NCBI GenBank assembly: GCA_017407835.1
Contig: JAFQVV010000010.1
Location: forward strand, 1-64,000
Length of the DNA stretch: 64,000 bases
Direction of reading: 5' to 3'
From: Clostridia bacterium
Lineage (GTDB): Bacteria > Bacillota > Clostridia > Oscillospirales > CAG-272
Part shown: piece by piece, positions 37,625 to 38,290 of the stretch
How the letters are laid out: every line of letters begins with the position of its first letter
Numbering within the stretch: position 1 is the first letter of the stretch
Program-made: the position numbers and the translations under genes
The notes under the pieces: model-generated
The model's database searches: none
What the model was told of the DNA's origin: nothing
The model's input: the letters and a program-made list of their open reading frames with translations, nothing else

Positions 37625-37645
37625 TGTCGTGCACCTCCAGTACAT

Positions 37646-37680
37646 AAAGAAAAAATGTGCGACAGACACAGTCTCCGCAC
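37646..37680 (-). promoter_or_regulatory. Attenuator hairpin in the infC leader (L20/infC-leader type)
   Basis: Within the about 145-nt leader a stem GTGCG/CGCAC plus AGAC/GTCT (37680-37657) is followed by ATTTTTTCTTT (37656-37646), an intrinsic terminator 22 bp before the infC start. This is where Firmicutes infC-rpmI-rplT operons carry L20-controlled transcription attenuators. The competing antiterminator was not resolved by eye. Confidence 0.7.
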
Positions 37681-37775
37681 AAACCTTGCCCCCGACAAAC
37701 GAAGGATGGATATTAACCCGGCTCGCGGTGCGGCAGGGTGAGAACGGAGCGTGTTCTTCTTCTTTTACGCACAAT

Positions 37776-37804: not shown

Positions 37805-37999
37805 GACTTTTTTTGCATTTGCTCAAAAATATTTTTTCGGCACAACATACACCCAAAAGCATGCAAAAACTTTATCCGGGAAGAAGATTTTCACAAGCTT
37901 TGTTCATGAATAACAAAATCCCCCCTTTTTTCACCCCGTCTTTTCTATGTCATATTCATTTCCACGAAATTTTCATCAAAAAATCGTCAATATTGATGA

Positions 38000-38028
38000 T
38001 TTACAAATTCGATTTTATTCGCTATAAT
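38000..38028 (+). promoter_or_regulatory. Strong SigA promoter upstream of the candidate RNA
   Basis: TTTACA (38000-38005), 17 bp, and a perfect TATAAT (38023-38028). It points toward lon but lies about 320 bp before it, with a terminator-like element in between. Confidence 0.8.
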
Positions 38029-38034
38029 ATTATC

Positions 38035-38165
38035 GTTGACGTGAAAATTTGCCGAAATGCGAATTTTCCGTCATCACGCACAGCGCGCCCCTTATAGTTG
38101 CCGCGGAATATCAAACTCATGATATCACCCTGCGATGCACTAAGGACGCGCTTTTTTCCTTTTTT
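38035..38165 (+). ncRNA. Candidate structured non-coding RNA or lon leader attenuator
   Basis: The predicted transcript starts near 38035. It forms a 5' hairpin of TGACG-GAAAATT (38037-38041, 38043-38049) with AATTTTC-CGTCA (38062-38073). A long-range stem follows: GCGCG...CCTTA (38083-38094) with TAAGG...CGCGC (38141-38151), enclosing a small hairpin ATATCA/TGATAT (38108-38113 with 38120-38125). Two T-runs (38152-38157, 38160-38165) come directly after the long stem. Promoter, folded core and terminator make a unit of about 130 nt with no convincing reading frame. I do not recognise a known RNA family. This stretch and the AT-rich DNA around it (37805-38354) hold no gene I can support. Confidence 0.5.
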
Positions 38166-38261
38166 CGCTCATTTGACGTTCAAAAATTCCGATCAGACCG
38201 GATTTCCCTTTGCTAAATACGATATTCTTATATATTATTTGTAAAAATATTTCGTAACCCA

Positions 38262-38290
38262 TAGAAATTCGGAAAGATTTGTGGTATACT
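38262..38290 (+). promoter_or_regulatory. lon: Probable proximal promoter of lon
   Basis: TAGAAA (38262-38267), 17 bp, TATACT (38285-38290). The -10 is good and the -35 moderate. The leader contains a GTGCC/GGCAC hairpin (38299-38324) just before the ribosome site. No CIRCE or CtsR box was seen. Confidence 0.55.

Follow-up and report, generated by a model that had tools for sequence, protein, structure and literature searches.

A predicted small RNA gene between infC and lon in a family of uncultured gut Clostridia

The intergenic region between infC and lon raises the question of whether it carries an RNA gene in its own right or a regulatory element belonging to lon. An earlier note, made from the sequence of the window (the whole 64,000-nucleotide stretch of Clostridia DNA analyzed here), had left both readings side by side. 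Our analysis favors the first, and we place the probability that this region holds a stand-alone conserved RNA gene at roughly 0.93. The small RNA is an uncatalogued gene with a predicted promoter and terminator of its own, and it is kept by selection in about half of the sampled genera of one uncultured gut Clostridia family. Its fold and its all but constant loop are suggestive of a regulatory RNA. The observation in the earlier note is correct, and the case is stronger than it was put there.

Predicted architecture and promoter

The note had described a TTTACA-17-TATAAT promoter, a bulged hairpin at the 5′ end of the transcript, a GC-rich long-range stem enclosing a further hairpin, and two T-runs, all of which were recovered at the positions listed in Table 1. 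The long-range stem, P1, encloses P2 and P3 and is followed by the T-runs; it is absent from the output of a simple terminator scan of the window because the enclosed loop is large. A T-run lies 3′ of the stem in 80 of 83 related units. The observation that the region has no open frame also stands, since the transcript ranges from about 84 to 156 nt across relatives and the overlapping ORFs are therefore chance frames.

Table 1. Predicted features of the infC-lon intergenic region in the window.
Feature	Position	Strand	Basis or remark
Possible L20 leader (RF00558) upstream of infC	37645..37767	-	sub-threshold match, 34.8 bits, E 5e-5
Conserved upstream element AAAAATCGTCAATATTGATGA	37979..37999	+	directly before -35; A/T blocks conserved over 83 units
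Sigma-A type promoter TTTACA-17-TATAAT	38000..38028	+	11/12 consensus bases
Predicted transcript, segment folded	38033..38166	+	proposed transcript of about 120 nt starts near 38035
Predicted transcript start and 5′ hairpin P0	~38034/38035..38078	+	fold prediction
P1 closing stem, 5′ arm and linker	38082..38099	+	fold prediction; arm-pairing test in relatives; 38082-38087 pairs with 38147-38152
P2 5′ arm (GCCGCGG) and conserved GGA	38100..38107	+	P2 pairs covary
Apical hairpin P3, AUAUCA-AACUCA-UGAUAU, loop CA[ANCUNA]UG	38108..38125	+	pairing, compensated changes, loop composition
P2 and P1 3′ arms	38126..38152	+	fold prediction; arm-pairing test in relatives
Intrinsic terminator U-run(s) TTTTTTCCTTTTTT	38152..38165	+	sequence; T-run in related units; runs at 38152-38157 and 38160-38165
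Promoter-like site between terminator and lon	38262..38290

Seventy-eight matches to the apical core were read, and two of them, which lack a promoter and look like chance, were set aside. The same promoter precedes 74 of the remaining 76, in nearly all cases about 60-130 nt upstream of the core, so that by sequence the family members possess their own promoter as well as an intrinsic terminator. In a tally of 83 units, comprising 73 promoter-bearing core matches and 10 divergent members, the -35 element is TTTACAAA and the -10 element TATAAT, hexamers that are partly selected because units were admitted by promoter match. A/T-rich blocks also lie upstream (AAAAATCGT, TTTTG), and neither these nor the AA after the -35 was required for entry into the tally. 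The upstream element is unique within the window, and the upstream pattern is single-copy in most genomes where it is found, there marking the infC-lon RNA; it may be the mark of a strong promoter class. A second copy of the upstream element, with a promoter, was seen in one relative (L333; G002:C6:9290-9318, minus strand), before a gene whose product resembles a secreted surface protein with a repeat tail.

Fold, covariation and host range

The predicted transcript folds at -43.8 kcal/mol, compared with -26.7 ± 3.1 kcal/mol for dinucleotide-shuffled sequences (z = -5.6; none of the 200 folded as well), and the mean fold z over the 83 units is -3.3. Inverted repeats allow both strands to fold, and the reverse strand also folds well, less significantly (z = -3.35). 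Across 62 sequences, 85% of the cells of the P2/P3 structure are paired and 11 of its 13 pairs carry changes on both sides. The covariation score for these sequences is 0.324 against 0.166 ± 0.013 in shuffles, none of 500 reaching it, and at most 0.158 when the partners are slid; relatedness is not taken into account by the shuffles, and the hairpin itself was what gave away several divergent members, so these figures lean towards structure. The 58 sequences of the first model, taken mostly from near-exact sequence matches, give the same answer (0.223 against 0.137 ± 0.012). Covariation across related genomes, which the earlier note had proposed as a check, is therefore present.

Within P3, 98% of cells are paired and four of the six pairs show compensated changes, which are spread over different genera (e.g. 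L059, L066, L092, L112, L124, L125, L143 and L149), making repeated independent events likely. The loop C-A-[A-N-C-U-N-A]-U-G is invariant in the 62 sequences apart from its two N positions and one C-to-U change. The C-G and A-U pairs that close it vary no more than the loop does, while the stem letters change in pairs. A search within the window found no other strong hairpin resembling the P3 loop. The P1 sequence differs between members, and arms pair better with their own partners than with swapped ones (mean run 6.4 versus 4.76, maximum 5.05 over 200 swaps). P0 is structured, variable in sequence and absent from the shortest members; the P0 segments of relatives beat shuffles with a mean z of -2.3 (n = 69). 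The stretch GGGCCAAT, or a related one, occurs in the P0 loop of members from different genera (L005, L086, L087, L090, L091, L103).

Among 97 related genomes searched at the DNA level, two from the same genus carry almost all of the unit with about 80% identity, and several other genera of the family have a short core. Allowing up to two mismatches, this apical core, GGAATATCAANCTNATGATATC, is present in 82 of 295 genomes of the family, nearly always as a single copy; the reversed pattern, used as a control, occurs 0 times in the same set. The second covariance model (E<=0.001) found matches in 112 of 248 family genomes and 30 of 60 genera, several of the weakest of which are likely false, judged by a recurrent coding-looking stretch. 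Strong matches were confined to this family, both with the first model in 345 genomes of the order and with the second in 391 genomes of the class and 348 of the phylum, under strict filters that may miss weak members. The lon-upstream regions of 25 genomes from other families of the order yielded no homologue. In family genomes with no strong match, infC is mostly absent from the lon-upstream region, but such regions supplied four further divergent members (L140, L143, L149, L151). The named contigs with the core come from uncultured Clostridia, chiefly of ruminant, deer and horse guts, one being Candidatus Flemingiibacterium.

Weak model matches outside the family are mostly coding-looking, none lies in a lon/infC setting, and many fall at the recurrent stretch GAGGAGTATCAACCTGCTGGATGATACC. 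This stretch, probably part of an ABC-transporter ATPase gene by its sequence, mimics the RNA core directly or as its reverse complement and is a steady source of false positives (L118, L119, L121, L309, L311, L312). Also rejected were L141, a chance hairpin in a coding-looking stretch, and five viral-contig matches and one Treponema pattern match, which lack the promoter and the outer stems.

Genomic context and possible modes of action

The usual gene order is rplT-infC (divergent), the RNA, lon and ysxC. The RNA faces away from lon and/or towards infC in 11 of the 75 contigs that bear the promoter. The inverted copies that could be matched to genome handles belong to three genera (g18, g48, g97), and all three also include members oriented in the usual way; inversion has therefore probably arisen at least three times. 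Several members have neither lon nor infC nearby, for instance one adjoining apparent argG and argH genes, as read by eye. The structure is thus conserved whatever the neighboring genes, and the RNA is usually single-copy. Together with the promoter and the covarying structure, this bears out the independent small RNA among the alternatives of the earlier note. The inversions and the copies beside unrelated genes argue against a role in cis; that the RNA so often keeps to the infC-lon location might point to a local function.

In the mechanism we propose, a strong sigma-A promoter would drive a transcript that forms the 5′ hairpin, then the long P1-P2-P3 hairpin, and stops at the U-run at the foot of P1. 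The RNA would be transcribed, probably strongly, and would act in trans, with P0 and P1 serving to stabilize and terminate it. A loop that stays fixed while the stem letters change in pairs is likely to be the recognized part. The invariant CA-ANCUNA-UG loop would then be a protein recognition site, through which the RNA sequesters or delivers the bound protein. On the sequence pattern, putative recognition of the loop by a protein stands at about an even chance, and we would give the same balanced odds to a stand-alone gene and this mechanism taken jointly. Antisense pairing or a tertiary contact is also compatible with an invariant loop, and the two free positions could suit either a protein or an antisense reading. 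More tentatively, at somewhat below even odds, the RNA may be a new family-wide riboregulator whose hairpin binds an RNA-binding protein or global regulator. If so, these Clostridia would possess a 6S- or CsrB-like control layer not described before.

A trans-acting antisense small RNA, in which the exposed ANCUNA loop and the flanking GGA strand form an mRNA-pairing seed, perhaps helped by an RNA chaperone, is the main rival, possible but rather unlikely. A free-standing gene with its own promoter and intrinsic terminator would suit it, and a seed would be expected to show as an unpaired stretch that stays fixed; however, such a seed, at six bases, would be very short, would have two free positions and would be closed within a stable hairpin whose C-G and A-U closing pairs are fixed like the loop, as in a hairpin recognized by shape.

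Very improbable is a cis-acting attenuator or leader of lon, with transcription from 38035 stopping at the U-run or reading into lon, the conditional terminator that the earlier note had offered as its second alternative. In the window, as in most members, the RNA does lie upstream of lon and codirectional with it, as a leader should, but the inverted contigs, the others placed away from lon and the members beside unrelated genes do not share this arrangement. Moreover, a promoter-like site follows the terminator before lon, and no conserved alternative antiterminator fold was seen.

That the palindrome TATCA-N6-TGATA is a DNA operator rather than an RNA can hardly be sustained: the core is an inverted repeat of nearly invariant sequence, yet the spacer (the loop) is more conserved than the half-sites, whose changes compensate each other in pairs; P1 and P2, too, keep their pairing although their sequences vary, and on the plus strand G-U cells outnumber A-C cells (63 versus 19), which fixes the strand.

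The trans-acting RNA with a protein-recognized loop is our preferred reading. The RNA gene is strongly supported and absent from Rfam 15; it combines a compact recognition element with a distinctive promoter, and its host range is defined, among gut Clostridia known mainly from metagenome assemblies. The invariant loop offers a ready bait for a partner search, and the usual infC-lon position can guide the search for divergent copies.

Comparison with known RNAs

The earlier note recognized no matching RNA family, and the RNA corresponds to no Rfam 15 family and no known leader class. Rfam 15 gave no match at gathering threshold and no plausible one at E<=10 in the region, and at E<=1 none to the infC-lon RNA in 13 homologous loci. 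No description of it was found in the literature. Surveys of microbiomes have already yielded predicted structured-RNA candidates by the thousand (PMC8040213). The main text of this large human-microbiome survey does not mention lon or infC; an earlier unnamed prediction in survey motif tables is possible.

The L20 leader (RF00558) match shares the intergenic region with the infC-lon RNA but lies on the other strand and is separate from it; it is probably the L20 leader of the infC-rpmI-rplT operon in divergent form.

SRP RNA (RF00169/RF01854) has no match in the region, and a large SRP RNA is encoded elsewhere in the carriers G001, G002 and G004-G006. The two RNAs are alike in having a hairpin with a conserved apical part; bacterial SRP RNA, however, has its own apical domain, unlike the ANCUNA loop of the infC-lon RNA. 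The 98%-complete assembly of the window (G000) has no SRP RNA of either model, and four of its same-genus relatives have a clear large SRP RNA, so its absence is probably an assembly gap.

6S RNA (RF00013) likewise has no covariance-model match in the region, the genome's own 6S RNA lying elsewhere (G000:C33:3308-3513). Both are small and free-standing, with a long irregular hairpin, a housekeeping-type promoter and a possible protein-binding role, whereas 6S RNA has a central bubble and the infC-lon RNA a conserved apical hexaloop.

CsrB/RsmY-type RNAs sequester protein through many repeated recognition hairpins with GGA in the loop. The infC-lon RNA would resemble them in action if its invariant loop is a protein-binding site, and it is from this loop that we infer a possible CsrB-like sequestration of a regulatory protein; in place of repeated GGA-in-loop hairpins, it would present a single recognition hairpin.
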